A DNA stretch of 28,464 nt, from IMG/VR virus record IMGVR_UViG_3300000128_000013, positions 1 through 28,464 of that record; one strand, 5' to 3'. Under the pieces are notes generated by a model. The model saw only the letters and a list, made by a program, of their open reading frames with translations, had not been told where the DNA came from and made no database searches. This DNA comes from a virus. A program made the position numbers and the translations under genes. How positions within the stretch are numbered: position 1 is the first letter of the stretch; the number at the start of each line of letters is the position of its first letter. This document shows, in pieces, positions 3,039 through 16,658 of the stretch.

Positions 3039-4577
3039 ATGTCTAACGAAATCGTTAAGAAACTAAACTTCGGAGACGAAGGTAAAAATAAAGTCTTTCA
3101 GGGGGTCTCAAAGCTAACCAAGGCAGTAAGCTCTACATTAGGGGCAAGCGGCAAGTGTGTTATGCTTGAGGACTCATCTGGAAAACCATTAATCACAAAG
3201 GATGGGGTGACAGTAGCTAACTCAGTTACGCTTCTAGACCCTGTTGAAAATATGGGTGCTACACTTCTAAAGGAAGCCGCTAGACAAACCGTTAAAGAAG
3301 CAGGAGACGGAACAACAACTGCTACGGTACTAGCGCACTCTATTTTAAAAGAGGCATTTGAAACAAAGGACTATAACTCAAGAGAGGTAAGAGATGGAAT
3401 AAGCTCTGCTGTTGAAAAGGTTGTAGCGTACTTAGAAAGTAAAGCTGTAGACGTGAGTGGTGATATGCTAAAGCAGGTCGCTACAATATCATCTAACAAC
3501 GACTCAGATTTAGGGTCAATGATAGCCAAAGCTTTTGAAGACGTTGGCGAGAATGGTGTGGTAAGTATGGAAATATCTAATGACGAGGAAACATCTGTAG
3601 AGGTTGTTGACGGTGCGTCGCTAGACAAAGGCTTAAAGAACCATCACTTTATTAATAACAAAGAAAAAGGTTCCTGTGAGTTAAATAACCCACTGGTGCT
3701 AATCGTAGAGAGTAAGATACCTAACGTAAGAAAGGTTCAAAGCATTCTTGAACACGTTATTAAGAACAAGAAAGAACTATTAATTATTGGTGATGCTGAT
3801 GAACAACTAGTTACAGCAATCTCAATGAACGTATCTAAGGGGAACATCAAGGCTAACATTATTGATGCACCTGATTACGGCATTAATAAGAAGCAGACAT
3901 TGCAAGACTTTGCAGTTCTAACAGGGGCCACAGTAATAAACGAAGACCTTGGGGACGATATGGACCTAATTGATGTAAGTCACCTAGGAACGTGCTTGAA
4001 GTCAATAACAACATCTGACGAGACAATTATTCAAGTAGATGGGATGAGTGATGATGTCAAGTACTTAATCAAGCAGCTTAAAAAAGAATTAAAGACTACA
4101 AAGATTAACGGCAAGAAACACTTGCTTGAAAAAAGGCTTTCAAGGCTTGGAGGTAAGGTAGGAGTTGTTAAGGTGGGTGCAAACTCAGAGGTTGAGCTAA
4201 AAGAGAAGGCTGACAGAGTTGAGGATTCAATCTGTGCTACTAAAGCAGCAATTAAAGAAGGTATACTTCCAGGTGGAGGAATAGCTTTACTTAATGCTAG
4301 TGATAAGGTTAAGGCCAACGACATAGGAGAGGAGATATTACTAAAGGCGATAAAAGCACCGTTCCAAACGATAATGGATAATGCTGGCGTTAAGATAGGG
4401 CTTGTGAACTCAGAGGAGGGTTTAGGAGTCAACGTGATAACAGGAGAGATTGTTGATATGGTTAAGTCTGGAATAGTTGACCCACTACTTGTTACAAAGA
4501 GTGCATTAAAAAATGCGGCATCTGTAGCAAATACGATACTAGCAACTGATTGTGTAATTAATAACTTAAGAGCATAA
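3039..4577 (+). CDS. groEL: Phage-encoded GroEL-like chaperonin (Cpn60)
   Basis: The protein is a 512-residue group I chaperonin ATPase that should form a ring and fold client proteins with a GroES lid. The equatorial ATP-site motifs are intact: ITKDGVTVA with D55, GDGTTTATVL at 89-98 with D90, RVED with D396 (equivalent to the hydrolytic Asp398 of E. coli GroEL), and GGG at 412-414. The intermediate and apical domains are in order at about 137-376. It is shorter than the usual 540-550 residues, chiefly because the C-terminal Gly-Gly-Met tail is absent; it ends DCVINNLRA. Recalled against E. coli GroEL, the apical client/GroES-binding surface differs (Y199 to L, Y203 to H, L234 to Q). The stop overlaps the start of the GroES-like gene by one base. 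Folding of the capsid or other virion proteins is the likely job, by analogy with other phages. It is divergent enough from host-type GroEL to be a settled phage gene rather than a recent capture. Confidence 0.95.
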   Translation: MSNEIVKKLNFGDEGKNKVFQGVSKLTKAVSSTLGASGKCVMLEDSSGKPLITKDGVTVANSVTLLDPVENMGATLLKEAARQTVKEAGDGTTTATVLAHSILKEAFETKDYNSREVRDGISSAVEKVVAYLESKAVDVSGDMLKQVATISSNNDSDLGSMIAKAFEDVGENGVVSMEISNDEETSVEVVDGASLDKGLKNHHFINNKEKGSCELNNPLVLIVESKIPNVRKVQSILEHVIKNKKELLIIGDADEQLVTAISMNVSKGNIKANIIDAPDYGINKKQTLQDFAVLTGATVINEDLGDDMDLIDVSHLGTCLKSITTSDETIIQVDGMSDDVKYLIKQLKKELKTTKINGKKHLLEKRLSRLGGKVGVVKVGANSEVELKEKADRVEDSICATKAAIKEGILPGGGIALLNASDKVKANDIGEEILLKAIKAPFQTIMDNAGVKIGLVNSEEGLGVNVITGEIVDMVKSGIVDPLLVTKSALKNAASVANTILATDCVINNLRA

Positions 4578-4837
4578 TGAAGGCAGTAGGGAAATACATG
4601 TTGATAGAGCCTGTAAAAGAAAACGAAGTATCTACAAAGGGTGGTTTAATCTTAGGAGAGAGCCACAGGGAAGATATAAGATACAGGGAGGCTAAAGTAA
4701 AAACCATAGGAACATTAGTTGAAGGAGTACAAGATGGAGACACCATTTACTACGACAGGCACGCAGGGTTTGATATGGAGATAGATAAGGTTATATATAA
4801 GGTTATTAAAGAGTTTGACGTTGTTGTTGTTTTATGA
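4577..4837 (+). CDS. groES: Phage-encoded GroES-like co-chaperonin (Cpn10), short form
   Basis: This 86-residue protein begins at the ATG that overlaps the GroEL stop by one base. The fold pattern of Cpn10 is clear: N-terminal strand KYMLIEPV; mobile loop with the hydrophobic tripeptide LIL at 24-26 after GG (the IVL of E. coli GroES, which docks on GroEL); a long KTIG strand at 42-45; GDTIYYDRHAG at 54-64 (family GDxVxFxxxxG); and the closing strand DVVVVL. Between the KTIG strand and GDTIYY only about eight residues are present, where E. coli GroES has a much longer segment containing the roof hairpin, so the dome roof appears to be missing, as in T4 gp31. Its partner is almost certainly the GroEL-like protein upstream. 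The family call is strong; the roofless reading rests on this alignment by eye. Confidence 0.85.
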   Translation: MKAVGKYMLIEPVKENEVSTKGGLILGESHREDIRYREAKVKTIGTLVEGVQDGDTIYYDRHAGFDMEIDKVIYKVIKEFDVVVVL

Positions 4838-5280
4838 AACGTTTAGAGGCCAATGATATAAAGAATTTAAGCCTACTAAAGCATTACCGCATCATCAGGC
4901 GGTGGGCTTGCAGAAACAATGGGCTTTCTGATGCAGATCTAGAGTTATTAATTTATCTAGACTGCATTGGTCTTTTTAACAGACTTGATTTTATAGATGG
5001 AGCTTATTCTTACAGTTGGGATAATAGAAGATGGGCTAGATTAAAAGCGGATGATTGGATAAATGTGTTTGCGAAAAGAAACAGGACAACTACTAAAAGT
5101 AATGTGTATAAAGTTTCTTTCAAAGGCAAGCAGCTAATAAATAAAATATACCGCATAATGTTAGGAGAAGAAGACATTCCAACTAGTACAAAAAGAAATG
5201 TTATAATGAAGGGTAAAAGATACTCTGACAAAGTCCTTATAAAATCAATTAAAAACGTAAACAACGATAAATCAATATAA
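4834..5280 (+). CDS. Winged-helix (MarR-like) DNA-binding protein
   Basis: The 148-residue protein starts in a four-base overlap (ATGA) with the GroES-like gene. Residues 12-110 fit a winged-helix layout: helix LSLLKHYRIIRRWAC, helix LSDADLELLIYLDCIGLF, a short turn and recognition-type helix around SWDNRRWARLKADDW at 61-75, and then a basic wing INVFAKRNRTT...VYKVSFKGKQLINKIYRIMLGE. The basic tail (KRNVIMKGKRYSDKVLIKSIK) would suit DNA contact. I recall closely similar proteins in marine Bacteroidetes phages labelled MarR-like, but the target and role are unknown. Its place in the chaperonin operon, before the lysis and head genes, suggests a late-gene regulator or DNA-associated protein. 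The fold is fairly sure, the function is not. Confidence 0.65.
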   Translation: MKRLEANDIKNLSLLKHYRIIRRWACRNNGLSDADLELLIYLDCIGLFNRLDFIDGAYSYSWDNRRWARLKADDWINVFAKRNRTTTKSNVYKVSFKGKQLINKIYRIMLGEEDIPTSTKRNVIMKGKRYSDKVLIKSIKNVNNDKSI

Positions 5281-6069: not shown

Positions 6070-6531
6070 ATGGATAAGATAAGTAAACACGTATCTTATA
6101 AAGAAGCTACAAGAAGTGCGACAGCCGCGCGAATGAACTTAAATAACGCCCCTGATGAGGCCCAACTTAAATGTATGGGTATTTTATCAGAAAAGGTATT
6201 TGAACCCCTTAGAAAGCACGTAGGAGGCCCTATACGGATCAATAGCTTCTTTCGTTCTCCAGAATTAAACAAATCTGTTGGTGGTAGTACAACCTCTCAG
6301 CATTGCAAAGGTCAAGCTATGGATTTAGACGATTCATACGGTCATGCAACTAATGCTGAAATGTATGAGTTTATAAAAGAGAACTTAGACTTCGATCAGA
6401 TGATATGGGAATTTGGGGATTATGATAATCCAGACTGGGTACACGTATCTTACGTATCTTCAAAGGCAAACAGGAATAGGTGCCTAGCAGCTTATAAAGA
6501 GCACGGCAGAACACGATATAAAATAATATAA
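6070..6531 (+). CDS. Peptidase M15-type endolysin (D-Ala-D-Ala/L-Ala-D-Glu carboxypeptidase-like)
   Basis: The 153-residue protein matches the M15 (VanY/M15_3) zinc peptidase family, which cuts peptide cross-links of peptidoglycan and is used by many phages as endolysin. The diagnostic zinc ligands are visible: H78 and D85 in SQHCKGQAMDLDD (H-x6-D), and H125 in PDWVHVSY, with D122 (and E114 in WEF) as likely catalytic helpers. The upstream strand pair with PIRINSFFRSPELNKSVGG is the family's standard lead-in. There is no signal peptide, so a holin is needed for access to the cell wall. Its stop overlaps the next ATG by one base. It sits just after the holin-like and Lys/Ala-rich genes, which makes a lysis cassette. 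A virion-associated role cannot be ruled out. Confidence 0.88.
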   Translation: MDKISKHVSYKEATRSATAARMNLNNAPDEAQLKCMGILSEKVFEPLRKHVGGPIRINSFFRSPELNKSVGGSTTSQHCKGQAMDLDDSYGHATNAEMYEFIKENLDFDQMIWEFGDYDNPDWVHVSYVSSKANRNRCLAAYKEHGRTRYKII

Positions 6532-8252: not shown

Positions 8253-8479
8253 TGAGTAGTGTTGTAAGAAAAATCAGCATAGGATCTGATTACAAAAATG
8301 ACGCAATGCACTATTCTGTAGGACAGCAAGTGTATGGTGGTCACGAAATATCTAATATTCTTCTTGACGAGAAAGATAGCTCTTACAACATCTATATAAA
8401 AAAGGGTGACGAAGTGCTACCTTGGAAAAAGTTTAATAGCAATATGGCTATCTCAGTTGAGTACGACTTGCAGTATTAA
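8252..8479 (+). CDS. Conserved small phage protein, beta-rich
   Basis: The 75-residue protein is coupled to both neighbours by one-base overlaps. It begins VVRKISIGSDYKNDAMHYSVGQ and continues with alternating strands (VYGGHEISNILLDE, YNIYIKKGDEVLPWKKF, ISVEYDL). No cysteine or membrane segment is present. The pattern, with the KISIG.DYK..AMHY lead, is one I recall as conserved in this genome location in marine Bacteroidetes phages, but no function has been assigned to my knowledge. It might be a packaging or head-assembly accessory, judging only by the run of genes into the terminase. Confidence 0.55.
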   Translation: MSSVVRKISIGSDYKNDAMHYSVGQQVYGGHEISNILLDEKDSSYNIYIKKGDEVLPWKKFNSNMAISVEYDLQY

Positions 8480-9075
8480 TGAAAAGTATTCACGATTTTA
8501 TCGTAAAACCCACAGAGGGTCGATACAATAATACTGTTAAGGTTGACGAGGTTGACCTTATAGTCAATACAAGAATTGAGGAATTTAAAAGCGTGAGTAA
8601 AGTTGCCGAGGTGGTAGCTTTACCATTAGCTGTAAATACTAACATAAAAGTTGGGGATAAAGTCATAGTGCACCACAACGTATTTAGAAGATTCTATGAC
8701 ATTAGAGGAAACGAAAAAAACAGTAGAAGTTTTATTAAAGAAGATATGTATGCTTGCTCACCTGAGCAGATATATATGTATGGAACAAATAAGACTAATC
8801 TTGATTATTGTTTTGTAAAGCCCTTAGTAAGCTACGATATTTTTTCTTTAGATAAAGAAAAGCCGCTTGTTGGAATATTAAAGTTTGGGAACAAAGGTTT
8901 AGCCAGCCTAGGAATAAATGAAAAAGATTTAGTATCTTTCAGGCCAACATCAGAATTTGAGTTTATCATTGATGGCGAGCTATTATATTGTATGAAATTA
9001 ATTAACATTGTTGCGAAACATGAACGTAAAGGAAACGAAGAAGAATATAATCCTAGCTGGGCAAAGAGCAGTTGA
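8479..9075 (+). CDS. Tandem GroES-like (Cpn10-fold) protein
   Basis: The 198-residue protein reads as two Cpn10-like halves. The first (about 20-103) has VAEVVALP...VKVGD-type pattern: KVAEVVALPLAVNTN, then IKVGDKVIVHHNVFRRFYDI at 57-75 (family GDxVxF), then MYACSPEQIYMY as the closing strand. The second (about 112-181) repeats this: VGILKFGN, then INEKDLVSFRPTSEFEFIIDG at 146-166 and LLYCMKLINIVAKHE, close to the IDNEEVLIMSESDILAIVE end of E. coli GroES. Only the first half has a hint of a mobile loop (DLIVNTRIEE at 26-35). A two-domain Cpn10 is known in chloroplast Cpn20. It overlaps the preceding gene by one base and the candidate small terminase by 56 bases. If right, it may be a second co-chaperonin or a head-assembly protein using the fold. 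Fold assignment is by eye and needs structure prediction. Confidence 0.5.
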   Translation: MKSIHDFIVKPTEGRYNNTVKVDEVDLIVNTRIEEFKSVSKVAEVVALPLAVNTNIKVGDKVIVHHNVFRRFYDIRGNEKNSRSFIKEDMYACSPEQIYMYGTNKTNLDYCFVKPLVSYDIFSLDKEKPLVGILKFGNKGLASLGINEKDLVSFRPTSEFEFIIDGELLYCMKLINIVAKHERKGNEEEYNPSWAKSS

Positions 9076-9304
9076 GGAATTAATAAAGGTAGCTAAAGAG
9101 GCTATTGTTGATTCAGATGATGACTTAACGGCAGACAAGCTAAAGAATGCCGCAGCGACTAAGAAGCTAGCTATTTTTGATGCTTTTGAAATCCTAAACA
9201 GAATTGAGCAAGAAGAAGAGATGCTAGACGAAACTCCTAAAGACGACACTAAGAAAAAGAGCGAGTTCAAAGGGTTTGCAGAAGGTAGGGCTAAATTCAG
9301 TTAG
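9020..9304 (+). CDS. Candidate terminase small subunit
   Basis: An open frame runs from 9008, but ATG 9020 is the first ATG and gives a 94-residue protein; upstream codons TTG are unlikely here. It overlaps the tandem GroES-like gene by 56 bases and its TAG (9302-9304) is one base before the large-terminase ATG. The sequence is helical and charged: KETKKNIILAGQRAVEELIK, then DDDLTADKLKNAAATKKLAI, then FDAFEILNRIEQEEEML, and a basic, disordered C-terminus (DDTKKKSEFKGFAEGRAKFS). Helical content, size and position directly upstream of the large terminase fit a small terminase, which binds DNA at the packaging start site. It lacks an obvious helix-turn-helix in my reading, so this is an inference chiefly from position. 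Confidence 0.5.
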   Translation: MNVKETKKNIILAGQRAVEELIKVAKEAIVDSDDDLTADKLKNAAATKKLAIFDAFEILNRIEQEEEMLDETPKDDTKKKSEFKGFAEGRAKFS

Positions 9305-9305
9305 T

Positions 9306-11519
9306 ATGTACGAACAGACACTATATAAAGTTTTAGACAACTACATAAAGGCATCTACTATAAAAAAGAAAAACAGGCACAAGACCTGGAAGTATGGTTA
9401 TGATGAGGATCATGACATGGTCATTATAAGTAAAACGGGTAAGATAGGAGAGATTTATGAGATACAAAATCTTAAGATAGCTTTGCCTGCTGAGTTTGAA
9501 ACTCATAACTTTAAAGACAAAAAGTGGTCTCATGCAGAGTACCCAAAAGAATTAAGTAGAATAAAAACAATATTTGATTGGAAGGAGTATCCTGAAGATT
9601 TTAAAGAACAATGGTACGATTATATTGAGAAAGAATTTGAAAGAAGAGAACAAGGATTTTGGTTTAATAATAAGAGTAATCCTACTTATATTACTGGCAC
9701 TCATTATATGTACTTGCAGTGGTCAAAAATTGATGTTGGGCCACCCGATTTTAGAGAATCAAACAGATTATTCTATATATTCTGGGAAGCCTGCAAGGCA
9801 GACTATAGATGTTTTGGAATGGACTACCTTAAAAATAGACGGAGTGGGTTTTCGTTCATGTCGTCTGGAGAAATTGTCAACCTTGCAACCATATCAACAG
9901 ATTCAAGATATGGAATACTTTCAAAGTCAGGGCCTGATGCAAAAAAAATGTTTACCGACAAAGTTGTGCCAATCTCAGTTAACTACCCGTTTTTCTTTAA
10001 ACCCATACAAGATGGTATGGATAGACCAAAAACAGAGCTTGCATATAGGATACCTGCTTCAAAACTTACAAGAAGGAAACTTGATGCTAATGAAAACCCA
10101 GAGGATCTCAAAGGGTTGGATACTACGATTGACTGGAAAAATACAGGTGACAACTCCTATGATGGAGAAAAATTAAAACTGCTTGTGCATGATGAATCAG
10201 GTAAATGGGAAAGGCCTAATAACATACTAAATAACTGGAGAGTTACAAAGACTTGTCTTAGATTAGGTAGTAGAATTATTGGGAAGTGTATGATGGGTTC
10301 AACATCTAACGCTTTAGACAAAGGAGGAGATAATTTTAAAAAATTATATTATGCGTCAGACGTTACGAGAAGAAACAGCAATGGACAGACTGCTTCAGGA
10401 CTATATTCTTTGTTCATACCTATGGAATGGAACTACGAGGGATACATTGATTCTTATGGACTACCTGTATTCGATACACCAGAAGAGCCAGTAGAAGATC
10501 CTTATGGAATGCCAATTAAGCAGGGTGTTATCGAATTTTGGGATAATGAAGTTGCAGGTTTAAAAGAGGATCAAGACGGGTTAAATGAATTTTATAGACA
10601 GTTTCCAAGAACAGAGCAGCATGCTTTTAGAGACGAAGCAAAAGAATCTTTATTTAATCTAACAAAAATATATCAGCAAATAGATCACAATGAATCAATG
10701 GAGGCTAGCACCCTAGTCACTAAAGGAAATTTTCAGTGGGAGAATGGCATTAAGGATACTAAGGTAATGTTTATGCCAAATAAAGATGGGAGATTTTATG
10801 TTTCATGGATACCCCCTATTAGTTTACAAAATAGGATTATATCTAAGCACGGAACAAATTACCCGGGCAATGAACACTTGGGAGCATTTGGGTGTGACAG
10901 TTACGATATATCAGGAACAGTAGATAGCAGAGGGTCAAATGGGGCGTTGCACGGATTAACAAAGTTTAGTATGGAAGAAGCCCCAACTAATCATTTCTTT
11001 TTAGAGTATATTGCTAGGCCGCAAACTGCAGAGATATTTTTTGAAGATGTATTAATGGCTTGCGTATTTTACGGTATGCCAATACTAGCAGAAAATAACA
11101 AGCCTAGATTATTATATCACCTTAAGAACAGAGGGTATAGAGGCTATTCAATGAATAGGCCAGATAAATCACATACTAAGCTATCAGTAACAGAAAGAGA
11201 AATAGGTGGTATACCTAACTCAAGCCAAGACATAATGCAAGCGCATGCTGCTGCAATAGAAACATATATAGAGGAACTTGTTGGAATTTTAGGTGATGAT
11301 GAAATGGGGGACGTTTACTTTCAAAGGACGTTAGAAGATTGGGCAAGATTTAATATAAACAATAGAACGAAGCACGATGCTTCTATTAGTTCCGGCTTGG
11401 CTATTATGGCTTGTAATAGAAACAGGTACGCACCAGTAAATAAAGTAGTAAGAAAAAATATAAATCTAGGAATGAAGAGATACGACAATTCTGGGAATTA
11501 TTCAAAAATAATAAATTAA
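9306..11519 (+). CDS. terL: Terminase large subunit (packaging ATPase/nuclease)
   Basis: The frame is open from TTG 9276, but ATG 9306, one base after the previous stop, is the natural start and gives 737 residues. The ATPase domain has a degenerate Walker A-like segment KNRRSGFSFMSSGE at 177-189 and a Walker B KLKLLVHDE ending with D296-E297. A coupling-motif stretch GSTSN at 331-335 follows. The nuclease domain starts near GAFGCDSYDISG, with the metal-binding Asp at about 531. The Arg-rich loop KNRRSG in place of a classical GKT is usual in this flavobacterial-phage terminase family, as I recall it. The protein pumps phage DNA into the prohead and cuts the concatemer. The portal gene begins at the base after its stop. 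No frameshift or truncation is seen. Confidence 0.88.
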   Translation: MYEQTLYKVLDNYIKASTIKKKNRHKTWKYGYDEDHDMVIISKTGKIGEIYEIQNLKIALPAEFETHNFKDKKWSHAEYPKELSRIKTIFDWKEYPEDFKEQWYDYIEKEFERREQGFWFNNKSNPTYITGTHYMYLQWSKIDVGPPDFRESNRLFYIFWEACKADYRCFGMDYLKNRRSGFSFMSSGEIVNLATISTDSRYGILSKSGPDAKKMFTDKVVPISVNYPFFFKPIQDGMDRPKTELAYRIPASKLTRRKLDANENPEDLKGLDTTIDWKNTGDNSYDGEKLKLLVHDESGKWERPNNILNNWRVTKTCLRLGSRIIGKCMMGSTSNALDKGGDNFKKLYYASDVTRRNSNGQTASGLYSLFIPMEWNYEGYIDSYGLPVFDTPEEPVEDPYGMPIKQGVIEFWDNEVAGLKEDQDGLNEFYRQFPRTEQHAFRDEAKESLFNLTKIYQQIDHNESMEASTLVTKGNFQWENGIKDTKVMFMPNKDGRFYVSWIPPISLQNRIISKHGTNYPGNEHLGAFGCDSYDISGTVDSRGSNGALHGLTKFSMEEAPTNHFFLEYIARPQTAEIFFEDVLMACVFYGMPILAENNKPRLLYHLKNRGYRGYSMNRPDKSHTKLSVTEREIGGIPNSSQDIMQAHAAAIETYIEELVGILGDDEMGDVYFQRTLEDWARFNINNRTKHDASISSGLAIMACNRNRYAPVNKVVRKNINLGMKRYDNSGNYSKIIN

Positions 11520-13953: not shown

Positions 13954-15147
13954 ATGCCAGAAGAAGTAAAACAAGAGGGGGACTTTAAAATAAAAAGTAA
14001 ACCTAAAATGAAAAAGTTTAATAAAGAAACCGAGACTATTAAAGTAGATTTATCTGCTAAAGGTAAAGTTGAGGAGGATGTTATTAAGGTTGATTTAAAA
14101 AAAGACAATGCCGATAAAGAGCAAGAAACAACAACAGTGGTTGCAGATAAACCAGCCGAAACTGTACAAGAAGTGGATACAGAAGTACCATCAGGGAAAA
14201 GCGCCATTCAAGATGAAGGGTTTGCTGGCATCCAAGAAATAACTGAAGAAGAAGCTAAAGAAGTAAAAGAAGTTGTAAAGGAAGCTAAAGAAGCAATCAG
14301 AGACGAAAAGATTACGGGTAAGCCGTTGCCTGAGAACGTTGAGAAGCTTGTTGCCTTTATGGAAGAAACGGGAGGAAATGTAGAAGACTATGTTAGGCTT
14401 AATGCAGATTACTCAAACGTGGACAATGATGTACTTTTAAAAGAGTACTATAAAAAAAGTAAACCTCATCTAAACGATGAAGAAATAAAATTCCTTTTAG
14501 AAGACAATTTTTCGTATGACGAAGATATTGATGAAGAAAGAGATATACGTAAAAGAAAATTAGCGTATAAAGAAGAAGTTGCAGAAGCCAAAAGCTTTTT
14601 AGAAACCTTGAAGGGTAAATACTACGATGAGATTAAGTTAAGACCAGGCGTAACCCAAGAGCAGAAAAAAGCAATGGACTTTTTCAACCGATACAATGAA
14701 GAAGCAAGCTTAAGCGAGCAGAAGCGCGATAGGTTTAAAAAAGCTACATCTAATCTTTTAAACGACAATTTCAAAGGTTTTGAATACGAAGTCGGAGGAA
14801 AGAAATTTAGGTATGGCATTAATAACCCAAGTAAAATTGCTGAGCAACAATCTAGTATTGATAATTTTGTCAAAAAGTTTGTCGACGAACAAGGCGAGAT
14901 AATTAATCACGAAGGTTATCACAAAGCAATGTATGCTGCTCAAAATATGGATCAGATTGCTAATCACTTTTATGAACAAGGCAAAGCAGACGCTGTTAAG
15001 GATGTTGTAGATAGTTCTAAGAACATATCAAACACTCCAAGACAAACAGCTGGCGATGCAGTTTTTGTAAATGGTATTAGAATTAAGTCCGTAACCGGAG
15101 CGGATTCTTCAAAACTAAGAATTAAAAAATCACAATTTAACAATTAA
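13954..15147 (+). CDS. Capsid scaffolding-like protein
   Basis: A 397-residue, strongly charged protein, Glu/Lys-rich, with a disordered N-terminus (KQEGDFKIKSKPKMKKFNKE and on to about 90) and helical middle (EEEAKEVKEVVKEAKEAI). A conserved-looking region (ENVEKLVAFMEETGGNVEDY, then YSNVDNDVLLKEYYKKSKPH, then RDIRKRKLAYKEEVAEAKSF) runs at about 125-225. The C-terminus is basic. It has no cysteine. Size, charge and position between portal and major capsid protein are those of an internal scaffold that directs prohead assembly and leaves before packaging. The start ATG 13954 follows an unusual ATATT-repeat leader. The call is by position and composition plus recalled relatives. Confidence 0.65.
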   Translation: MPEEVKQEGDFKIKSKPKMKKFNKETETIKVDLSAKGKVEEDVIKVDLKKDNADKEQETTTVVADKPAETVQEVDTEVPSGKSAIQDEGFAGIQEITEEEAKEVKEVVKEAKEAIRDEKITGKPLPENVEKLVAFMEETGGNVEDYVRLNADYSNVDNDVLLKEYYKKSKPHLNDEEIKFLLEDNFSYDEDIDEERDIRKRKLAYKEEVAEAKSFLETLKGKYYDEIKLRPGVTQEQKKAMDFFNRYNEEASLSEQKRDRFKKATSNLLNDNFKGFEYEVGGKKFRYGINNPSKIAEQQSSIDNFVKKFVDEQGEIINHEGYHKAMYAAQNMDQIANHFYEQGKADAVKDVVDSSKNISNTPRQTAGDAVFVNGIRIKSVTGADSSKLRIKKSQFNN

Positions 15148-15161
15148 AAAAACAAAACAAA

Positions 15162-16658
15162 ATGGGACAATTTTTTCCAACAGCTAACGATCCACTAGGA
15201 AAGTTTAGCTTACAACCGATGCCTACTAAAAGCGCATCAACTTCCAATTATTTAGATTTTACAGGTAACGCTGCAGGCGGAGACCCAGTAAATAACTTCG
15301 CACAACAATATTTACCAGAGCTTTACGAAGCTGAGGTAGAGCGATACGGAAATAGAACTCTATCAGGATTCTTAAGAATGGTAGGTGCTGAAATGCCAAT
15401 GACTTCTGACCAAGTTGTATGGTCTGAGCAAAACAGATTGCACATTGGATATGAAAATGGAGCAGGTGATTTATCTGTTACTGTTACAGATGCTGCTAAC
15501 GGAGCAATTACTTTAGGAGCAGATCACATTAACTCAATTAGAATAGGTGCAACTATCGTTGTTCAAAACAAAGTAGCTTCACCTGATGCTGATGCAGGGA
15601 AAGTAGTTAAAGCTTATGTTAGCGGTGTTACTGGTAATGTTGTTACAGCTTTACCTTACACAGAAGCTAGCTTAAACGTTTCTTTTGATACCTCTGATCC
15701 AGTAAATTTATTTGTATTTGGTTCAGAGTTTGTTAAAGGATCTGACAGAATGGGAGGTTCTTTAGAAGCTTCATTTACACAGTTCAATAACAAGCCAATT
15801 ATCATTAGAGACAATTACGAAGTAAATGGTTCTGATGCTGCACAAATTGGATGGGTTGAAGTTGCTGCTGAAGATGGAACATCAGGGTACCTATGGTACT
15901 TGAAGTCTGAAGGAGAAACAAGATTACGTTTCCAAGACTATTTAGAAATGGCAATGGTTGAAGGTGAGTTAAATACAAATGGAACAACTGCAGGAACTGT
16001 TGGTGCTCTTTTAGGAGATAACTCTGGTACTGAAGGTCTTTTTGCTGCTATTACTGCAAGAGGTAACGTATACCAAAACTATGCAAGCGGCGCTGGAGCC
16101 GGTGGTGCTGGAACACGAAGTGCTTTAGGAGACTTTGATTTAATTTTAGCAAATCTTGATAAGCAAGGGGCTATTGAAGAGAACATGTTATTCTTAGACA
16201 GAGCTACTTCTTTAGACTTTGATGATATGTTAGCTGCACAAAATTCTTACGGAGCAGGTGGTACATCTTACGGTGTATTTGAAAACTCTGAAGAAATGGC
16301 ATTGAACTTGGGATTTGACGGTTTCAGAAGAGGTTCTTACGACTTTTACAAGACTGATTGGAAATACTTAAACGATGCTACCACTCGTGGTTTAGTTGAT
16401 GATGTAGAAGGTGTATTAGTTCCAGCAGGAACAAGCACAGTATACGATCAAATGCTAGGTACTAACATCAGACGACCATTCTTACACGTACGTTATAGAG
16501 CTTCAGAGGCTGACGACAGAAGAATGAAGTCTTGGATTACTGGATCTGTTGGGGGTGCTGCTACTTCTAGCTTTGATTCAATGACAGTAAACTTCTTATC
16601 TGAAAGATGTTTAGTTACACAAGCTGCTAACAACTTTGTATTATTTACAAAATCATAG
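15162..16658 (+). CDS. Major capsid protein
   Basis: The 498-residue protein starts at ATG 15162 behind AAAACAAAACAAA. It carries the conserved-looking entry segment NFAQQYLPELYEAEVERYGN followed by RTLSGFLRMVGAEMPMTSDQ, then a shell-forming beta/alpha core and a Gly/Ala-rich loop (AGGAGTRSALGDF). It ends VNFLSERCLVTQAANNFVLF, a typical last strand of this family of Bacteroidetes-phage capsid proteins. An HK97-type fold is assumed. Rich in Ala, Gly, Thr and Asn, as usual for highly expressed capsid proteins. A strong intrinsic terminator follows directly, which fits separate, high-level expression. No scaffold protease is evident in the window, unless the HExxH gene serves. Confidence 0.82.
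   Translation: MGQFFPTANDPLGKFSLQPMPTKSASTSNYLDFTGNAAGGDPVNNFAQQYLPELYEAEVERYGNRTLSGFLRMVGAEMPMTSDQVVWSEQNRLHIGYENGAGDLSVTVTDAANGAITLGADHINSIRIGATIVVQNKVASPDADAGKVVKAYVSGVTGNVVTALPYTEASLNVSFDTSDPVNLFVFGSEFVKGSDRMGGSLEASFTQFNNKPIIIRDNYEVNGSDAAQIGWVEVAAEDGTSGYLWYLKSEGETRLRFQDYLEMAMVEGELNTNGTTAGTVGALLGDNSGTEGLFAAITARGNVYQNYASGAGAGGAGTRSALGDFDLILANLDKQGAIEENMLFLDRATSLDFDDMLAAQNSYGAGGTSYGVFENSEEMALNLGFDGFRRGSYDFYKTDWKYLNDATTRGLVDDVEGVLVPAGTSTVYDQMLGTNIRRPFLHVRYRASEADDRRMKSWITGSVGGAATSSFDSMTVNFLSERCLVTQAANNFVLFTKS

Follow-up and report, generated by a model that had tools for sequence, protein, structure and literature searches.

A phage-encoded GroEL, a roofless GroES and a tandem Cpn10 protein predicted to work as one chaperonin set

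The chaperonin genes and their conservation

The window, i.e., the whole stretch of DNA analyzed here, is the entire 28,464-nucleotide record IMGVR_UViG_3300000128_000013 (positions 1 to 28,464). This DNA, from a marine phage, carries a groEL gene, a groES gene and a third chaperonin-family gene that the earlier note on this DNA had overlooked (Table 1).

Table 1. Features of the window discussed in the text
Feature	Position	Strand	Basis
groEL, 512-aa group I chaperonin without GGM tail	3039..4577	+	ORF, profiles, catalytic residues, tree
GroEL residues 420-455, equatorial segment with canonical inter-ring contacts deleted or replaced	4296..4403	+	Alignment
groES, 86-aa single-domain co-chaperonin without roof hairpin	4577..4837	+	Pfam Cpn10
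GroES mobile loop, residues 15-35, conserved G-G-L-[IL]-L	4619..4681	+	Model and conservation
148-aa protein, function unassigned, gene overlapping groES by 4 bases	4834..5280	+	phrog_17028, E 2.2e-6
198-aa tandem Cpn10 (Cpn20-like), upstream of terminase	8479..9075	+	phrog_13932, Pfam over the family, fold
Predicted mobile loop of tandem domain 1, residues 17-40, core L-I-V-N	8527..8598	+	pLDDT and conservation
Tandem domain 2, residues 106-183, no mobile loop	8794..9027	+	hhalign E 7.9e-8; Z 7.9 to 8wuc_a
Terminase large subunit, conserved neighbor of tandem Cpn10, phylogenetic anchor	9276..11519	+	phrog_6681, E 9.4e-162
498-aa (53.5 kDa) virion structural protein, probable major capsid protein, candidate client	15162..16658	+	phrog_13704, E 4.4e-96

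The groEL product was recognized as a full-length Cpn60 by Pfam Cpn60_TCP1 (E 4.4e-56 over residues 26-508), by phrog_5725, the PHROG groEL family (E 2.6e-135), and by NCBIfam PRK12849 (462 bits, cut-off 352); the PRK00013 cut-off was likewise passed. Its score against the GroEL equivalog TIGR02348, 457 bits, lay below the cut-off of 582, which tests close equivalence and not group I membership, indicating a divergent GroEL. The ATP-site residues D55, D90 and D396, equivalent to D52, D87 and D398 of E. coli, were unchanged in 32/32 close relatives, and the GDGTT motif was also present and invariant in the family. These data confirm the initial description of a 512-residue group I chaperonin with intact catalytic aspartates. 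The absence of the Gly-Gly-Met tail, which had also been pointed out, is real. However, it is not distinctive, as none of the 24 phage GroELs compared has the tail, versus 65 of 79 bacterial ones, and we discarded it as a special trait.

As the earlier note had stated, a GroES-like partner follows with a one-base overlap (TAATG). The protein matched Pfam Cpn10 with an E value of 1.7e-10 (41.2 bits, cut-off 21.1). Its mobile loop forms a low-confidence, mostly unstructured stretch in the predicted model and contains a near-invariant hydrophobic tripeptide motif (G23 in 40/40, L24 in 38/40 and L26 in 39/40 sequences). The roof beta-hairpin is missing, with a gap of 9 columns in all 30 phage rows of the alignment. 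This feature is not decisive for GroES membership, since T4 gp31 also lacks it (PMC6318259). Because groES in turn overlaps the next gene, the groEL/groES pair lies within a longer same-strand array. Homologues of the 148-aa product of that next gene were found in 85 loci; it belongs to the same array and is at most a candidate member of the chaperonin system.

The N-terminal half of the third protein matched phrog_13932, "co-chaperonin GroES" (E 2.2e-21). This profile has 200 positions, and its other half is matched by the window GroES. When the halves were aligned with bacterial GroES by hhalign, the match was clear for the C-terminal half (Table 1) and weak for the N-terminal half (E 1.5e-3). 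A Pfam search of the window protein itself gave no Cpn10 match; among its relatives, 42 of 61 matched Pfam Cpn10 at E<=1, with a best value of 1.2e-4. A profile search against PDB sequences returned one irrelevant match and nothing else, and the identification therefore rests on the phrog profile, family-wide Pfam matches, hhalign and the fold. The profiles of the two halves did not align significantly with each other, the halves having diverged too far. We built an AlphaFold2 model from 61 sequences (mean pLDDT 84.6). Its best PDB match was Chlamydomonas Cpn20 (7ekq_R; Foldseek E 4.7e-5; VIA Z 10.0 over 155 residues, 17% identity). Taken separately, residues 1-103 matched 1wnr (Z 8.1), and residues 103-182 matched 8wuc. 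Given the predicted fold and the half-by-half GroES matches, we thus consider the product to be a tandem Cpn10, with two Cpn10 domains in one chain.

The two domains differ in their loops. In domain 1, the blocks spanning the predicted mobile loop have pLDDT values of 56-72, and the loop core, L27-x-x-N30, is highly conserved (N30 61/61, L27 58/61). Domain 2 is well ordered and devoid of a mobile loop, and we therefore describe the protein as Cpn20-like in architecture without filing it as a Cpn20. The gene is just upstream of the terminase gene in 80 of the 85 loci with enough downstream sequence. In three relatives (L166, L177 and L180), the tandem gene has a stop codon two residues before the usual C terminus, and in another (G011), there is one in-frame TAA within the matched stretch.

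All three chaperonin genes are under purifying selection. Among close relatives, dN/dS was 0.03-0.08 for groEL, about 0.01 or less for groES (saturated, with no value computed, against the most distant of the four relatives) and 0.04-0.14 for the tandem gene, and the genes are therefore maintained. One related contig has intact groES and tandem genes but a groEL (L031:2314-3851) broken up into three reading frames, through either true pseudogenization or a sequencing error.

The terminase of the window is 64% identical to that of the uncultured Manatee Spring podovirus MW202828, 44% to that of Elemovirus (Flavobacterium), 41% to that of Maribacter phage Panino and 36-37% to those of Cellulophaga phages of Callevirus and Baltivirus. 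Based on this kinship with Bacteroidota phages, the hosts of the window virus are likely Bacteroidota, which supports the attribution of the complete GroEL/GroES pair to a podovirus-type phage of Bacteroidetes. That the virus is small, as initially proposed, is doubtful, as the window is a 28.5-kb fragment and the genomes of the relatives are about 60-79 kb. Elsewhere in the window, positions 808-2124 encode a BspA-like protein of 438 aa, with a PKD domain and DUF285 repeats (E 1.9e-25), that is possibly a host-binding fiber protein, and positions 6070-6531 encode an M15-family peptidase (Pfam E 5.2e-15, phrog_894 E 1.6e-28), a probable endolysin. The terminase large subunits of two relatives (L063:2252-5491 and L064:2512-5751) contain a Hint/LAGLIDADG insert of approximately 320 residues after residue 308, following "LLVHDE," which is a probable intein.

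The three genes also occur together in related phages. The set of GroEL, single Cpn10 and tandem Cpn10, with one copy of each, is found in Elemovirus, MW202828, phi38:1 and Panino. For 32 distinct loci of the tandem gene, the upstream sequence reached 8.5 kb or more, and groEL and groES were within range in 29 of them; the other three (L127, L140 and L143) were considered as tandem loci without groEL and rejected, as groEL is located further upstream in all of them. Of 12 contigs chosen for the tandem gene, 11 contain groEL, and the twelfth (L090) ends 4.2 kb upstream of the tandem gene. The complete genome of Baltivirus phi18:3 (71,443 bp) encodes an 84-aa GroES and a 200-aa tandem Cpn10, and no Cpn60 was detected in it by HMM or BLAST. 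In Tenacibaculum phage Gundel_1, the most distant by terminase, neither was found in HMM and BLAST searches. Sub-threshold Cpn10 matches were detected beside the terminase of the crAss-like cr108_1 (L277, record 14073-14255; E 0.004) and in Bacteroides phage DAC20 (record 71079-71186; E 0.001). These weak matches fall in ORFs distinct from that of the main co-chaperonin and point to possible further second co-chaperonins.

Divergence and origin of the phage GroEL

The residues that we take, from established structural work, to make the inter-ring contacts of E. coli GroEL, K105, A109, R452, E461, S463 and V464, were conserved across the 79 bacterial GroELs of our alignment. The window protein has E at position 105, Q at 452 and K at 461, and positions 109 and 464 are deleted; at S463 it has G or a deletion, depending on the alignment. 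The segment comprises 33-37 residues in the window family versus 45-49 in bacteria, about 10 residues being deleted relative to the canonical protein in what is a gapped region of the alignment. K105 or E/D461 is kept in some relatives; A109, R452 and V464 are lost or altered family-wide. The window GroEL thus does not have the canonical bacterial contacts, which argues against a classical double ring. From its sequence, we predict a single heptameric ring or a weak, different interface between rings; by analogy with phage EL, such a different interface could exist. Mitochondrial Hsp60 can likewise form single rings, and inter-ring contacts are not needed for group I membership.

Changes were also found at residues that bind clients and lids. 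Y203H, L234Q and V263S replace residues that are hydrophobic in bacteria with polar ones; most relatives have A or S at position 263. As residues needed in E. coli GroEL are changed, client and lid binding may be weaker or specialized. The polar residues suggest that the range of clients has narrowed or that GroEL has co-adapted with the phage lids.

We addressed the origin of the family with a tree of 84 rows, built by a quick method with SH-aLRT support only and containing long phage branches. Host operon capture does occur in phages of this host phylum, since groES still precedes groEL, as in bacteria, in phages DAC20 and immuto, and the DAC20 GroEL is nested among those of Bacteroidota; in the same tree, that of Vibrio phage Va1 lies beside Vibrio. 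In contrast, the window family formed one clade (SH-aLRT 99) outside the bacterial GroELs sampled, and its best identity to the cellular GroELs retrieved was about 42%. The gene order is reversed as well, with groEL before groES in 68/68 window-family loci (overlaps of 1 to 20 bases), versus groES first at 73/73 bacterial groES matches examined. A phylogeny had initially been proposed as a check for near-identity to a single host clade, and on identity, tree and gene order, we rejected recent capture of a host groESL operon as very improbable. In a tree without phage EL, the window family grouped with Elemovirus, Panino, MW202828 and phi38:1, with an SH-aLRT support of only 82.

Proposed function and rival readings

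We favor, with a probability of about 0.68, a phage-owned three-gene set in which an ATP-driven GroEL, working as a single ring with two kinds of lids, is dedicated to folding phage proteins. GroEL would bind ATP, capture a client with its apical domains, be capped through the mobile loop of a lid, and release the client after folding. A single heptameric ring is predicted as the working form because the inter-ring contacts are missing. GroES, co-translated with GroEL, would be a lid whose missing roof leaves the dome open or enlarges it, as in T4 gp31. An alternative lid would be provided by the tandem Cpn10. The clients would be phage proteins made in large amounts or too big to fit the host cage. 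We infer such a role for the 53.5-kDa probable capsid protein, and dedicated folding of capsid or packaging proteins is likely. Arguing for this model are the invariant aspartates, the GroES loop motif, the missing roof hairpin, the altered inter-ring residues, the Cpn20 fold match, the GroES match of each half of the tandem protein and its conserved loop core, the co-occurrence of the genes, their low dN/dS and the production of GroEL during infection by the relative phi38:1. The weak match of the N-terminal half of the tandem protein, its failure to match Pfam Cpn10 in the window, the loopless domain 2, the gapped alignment from which the contact loss is read, the changed binding residues and the absence of a detectable GroEL in phi18:3 argue against it.

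It may be that both co-chaperonins act mainly on host GroEL, as T4 gp31 does. In that case, the phage GroEL would serve as an accessory or as a spare barrel, and its subunits might mix with those of the host. phi18:3, with both lids and no Cpn60, fits this reading, as does the conserved hydrophobic loop kept in both lids. In that branch, the lids presumably use the host barrel, and host GroEL is thus probably used in part of this phage group. For the window family, however, we consider this unlikely, as groEL is present in nearly all the contigs and overlaps groES in every locus, and the strong constraint on it is ill suited to a spare part. In light of the second co-chaperonin and of phi18:3, whose lids come without a GroEL, the private folding chamber independent of the host that the earlier note envisioned was an over-reading.

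The tandem protein could instead use its Cpn10 fold for packaging or assembly and be functionally unrelated to groEL and groES. Its gene lies directly upstream of that of the terminase, only one of its two domains has a loop, and its sequence similarity to Cpn10 is weak. On the other hand, the loop core is nearly invariant and the whole-protein fold match is a true co-chaperonin. Furthermore, the phi18:3 tandem protein was annotated by sequence similarity and the structural proteins of that phage by MS/MS, so it is no abundant component of the virion there. Altogether, we find a packaging function rather doubtful. A role of the locus in anti-phage defense was rejected, as there was no PADLOC match.

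Within the favored model of a dedicated three-gene set, a more specific version of the two-lid, single-ring arrangement is conceivable, though tentative. The tandem Cpn10 would enter a mixed ring with GroES or form a taller dome of two tiers, giving the cage more room for large chains of the capsid, portal or terminase. Because a single domain of the phage protein bears a loop, a two-tier lid made of seven copies and a mixed ring are equally plausible. If correct, the two-lid arrangement would represent viral convergence on that of the chloroplast.

Previous reports and comparison with known systems

Phage-encoded groEL/groES pairs are already known. Marine et al. 2017 (ISME J) is reportedly a survey of viral chaperonins. 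A structural paper of 2020, citing it, notes that certain phages encode GroES as well as GroEL (PMC7185714). Nishimura et al. (2017) reported GroEL proteins related to those of Cellulophaga phages in 36 marine environmental genomes from the phi38:1 group; the passages concerned mention neither the tandem co-chaperonin nor the loss of ring contacts (PMC5332604). Bartlau et al. listed chaperonin cpn10 among the Pervagoviridae core genes (PMC8776804), both GroEL and GroES were noted for Panino (PMC11590407), and infected cells were found to contain peptides of the phi38:1 GroEL (PMC13288928). The claim that these operons are little studied is thus fair for biochemistry, none of which was found in the literature for any member of the family, but not for the genes as such, which have been reported or annotated. 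The tandem co-chaperonin has been annotated, but we found no description of it as such in the literature searched. What is new here is the combination of lost ring contacts, a lid without a roof and, next to the terminase gene, a second lid resembling Cpn20.

Most work on lid-barrel matching and on the enlargement of the cage by phages has used T4 gp31 with E. coli GroEL. The present family provides a complete viral set, in which the barrel has apparently lost its inter-ring contacts, one lid is roofless and the other is double and Cpn20-like. The family has cultivable relatives, Elemovirus on Flavobacterium and Callevirus on Cellulophaga. It makes it possible to test whether a natural single-ring group I chaperonin with its own lids is sufficient, and whether tandem co-chaperonins evolved independently in viruses and plastids.

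The systems most like that of the window are those of Elemovirus elemoF_6-3D (NC_055853), Callevirus phi38:1 (NC_021796), Panino and MW202828, with related terminases and the same three-gene set. Their tandem Cpn10 proteins, of about 180-194 aa, are also encoded next to the terminase; that of MW202828 is annotated merely as hypothetical. However, their GroELs are only 35-39% identical to the window protein, and in phi38:1 an extra gene lies between groES and groEL, which are in the opposite order.

T4 gp31 is, like the window GroES, a phage lid without roof loops; this widens its opening and is believed to help fold the 56-kDa gp23 (PMC6318259). Unlike gp31, which works with host GroEL, the window GroES is shorter and clearly recognized by Pfam Cpn10. 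For the tandem protein, gp31 was a weaker fold match than Cpn20. The phage-encoded GroEL relatives gp146 of EL and gp246 of OBP were observed as single rings (PMC7185714, PMC5934643). The EL chaperonin works without a co-chaperonin and is very distant from the window GroEL, with 29% identity over part of its length, whereas the latter, a much closer group I member, has lids of its own.

The plastid Cpn20 proteins (7ekq_R in the chloroplast, PfCpn20 in the apicoplast) have two head-to-tail Cpn10 domains per chain, as does the tandem protein. Chloroplast Cpn20 also occurs beside a single-domain Cpn10, as in the window, and the two form mixed rings with seven domains (PMC5780408, PMC3542282). PfCpn20 has mobile and roof loops in both domains (PMC3542282), in contrast with the phage protein, whose loop is in domain 1 only. 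The phage tandem Cpn10 probably arose independently of its plastid counterpart.
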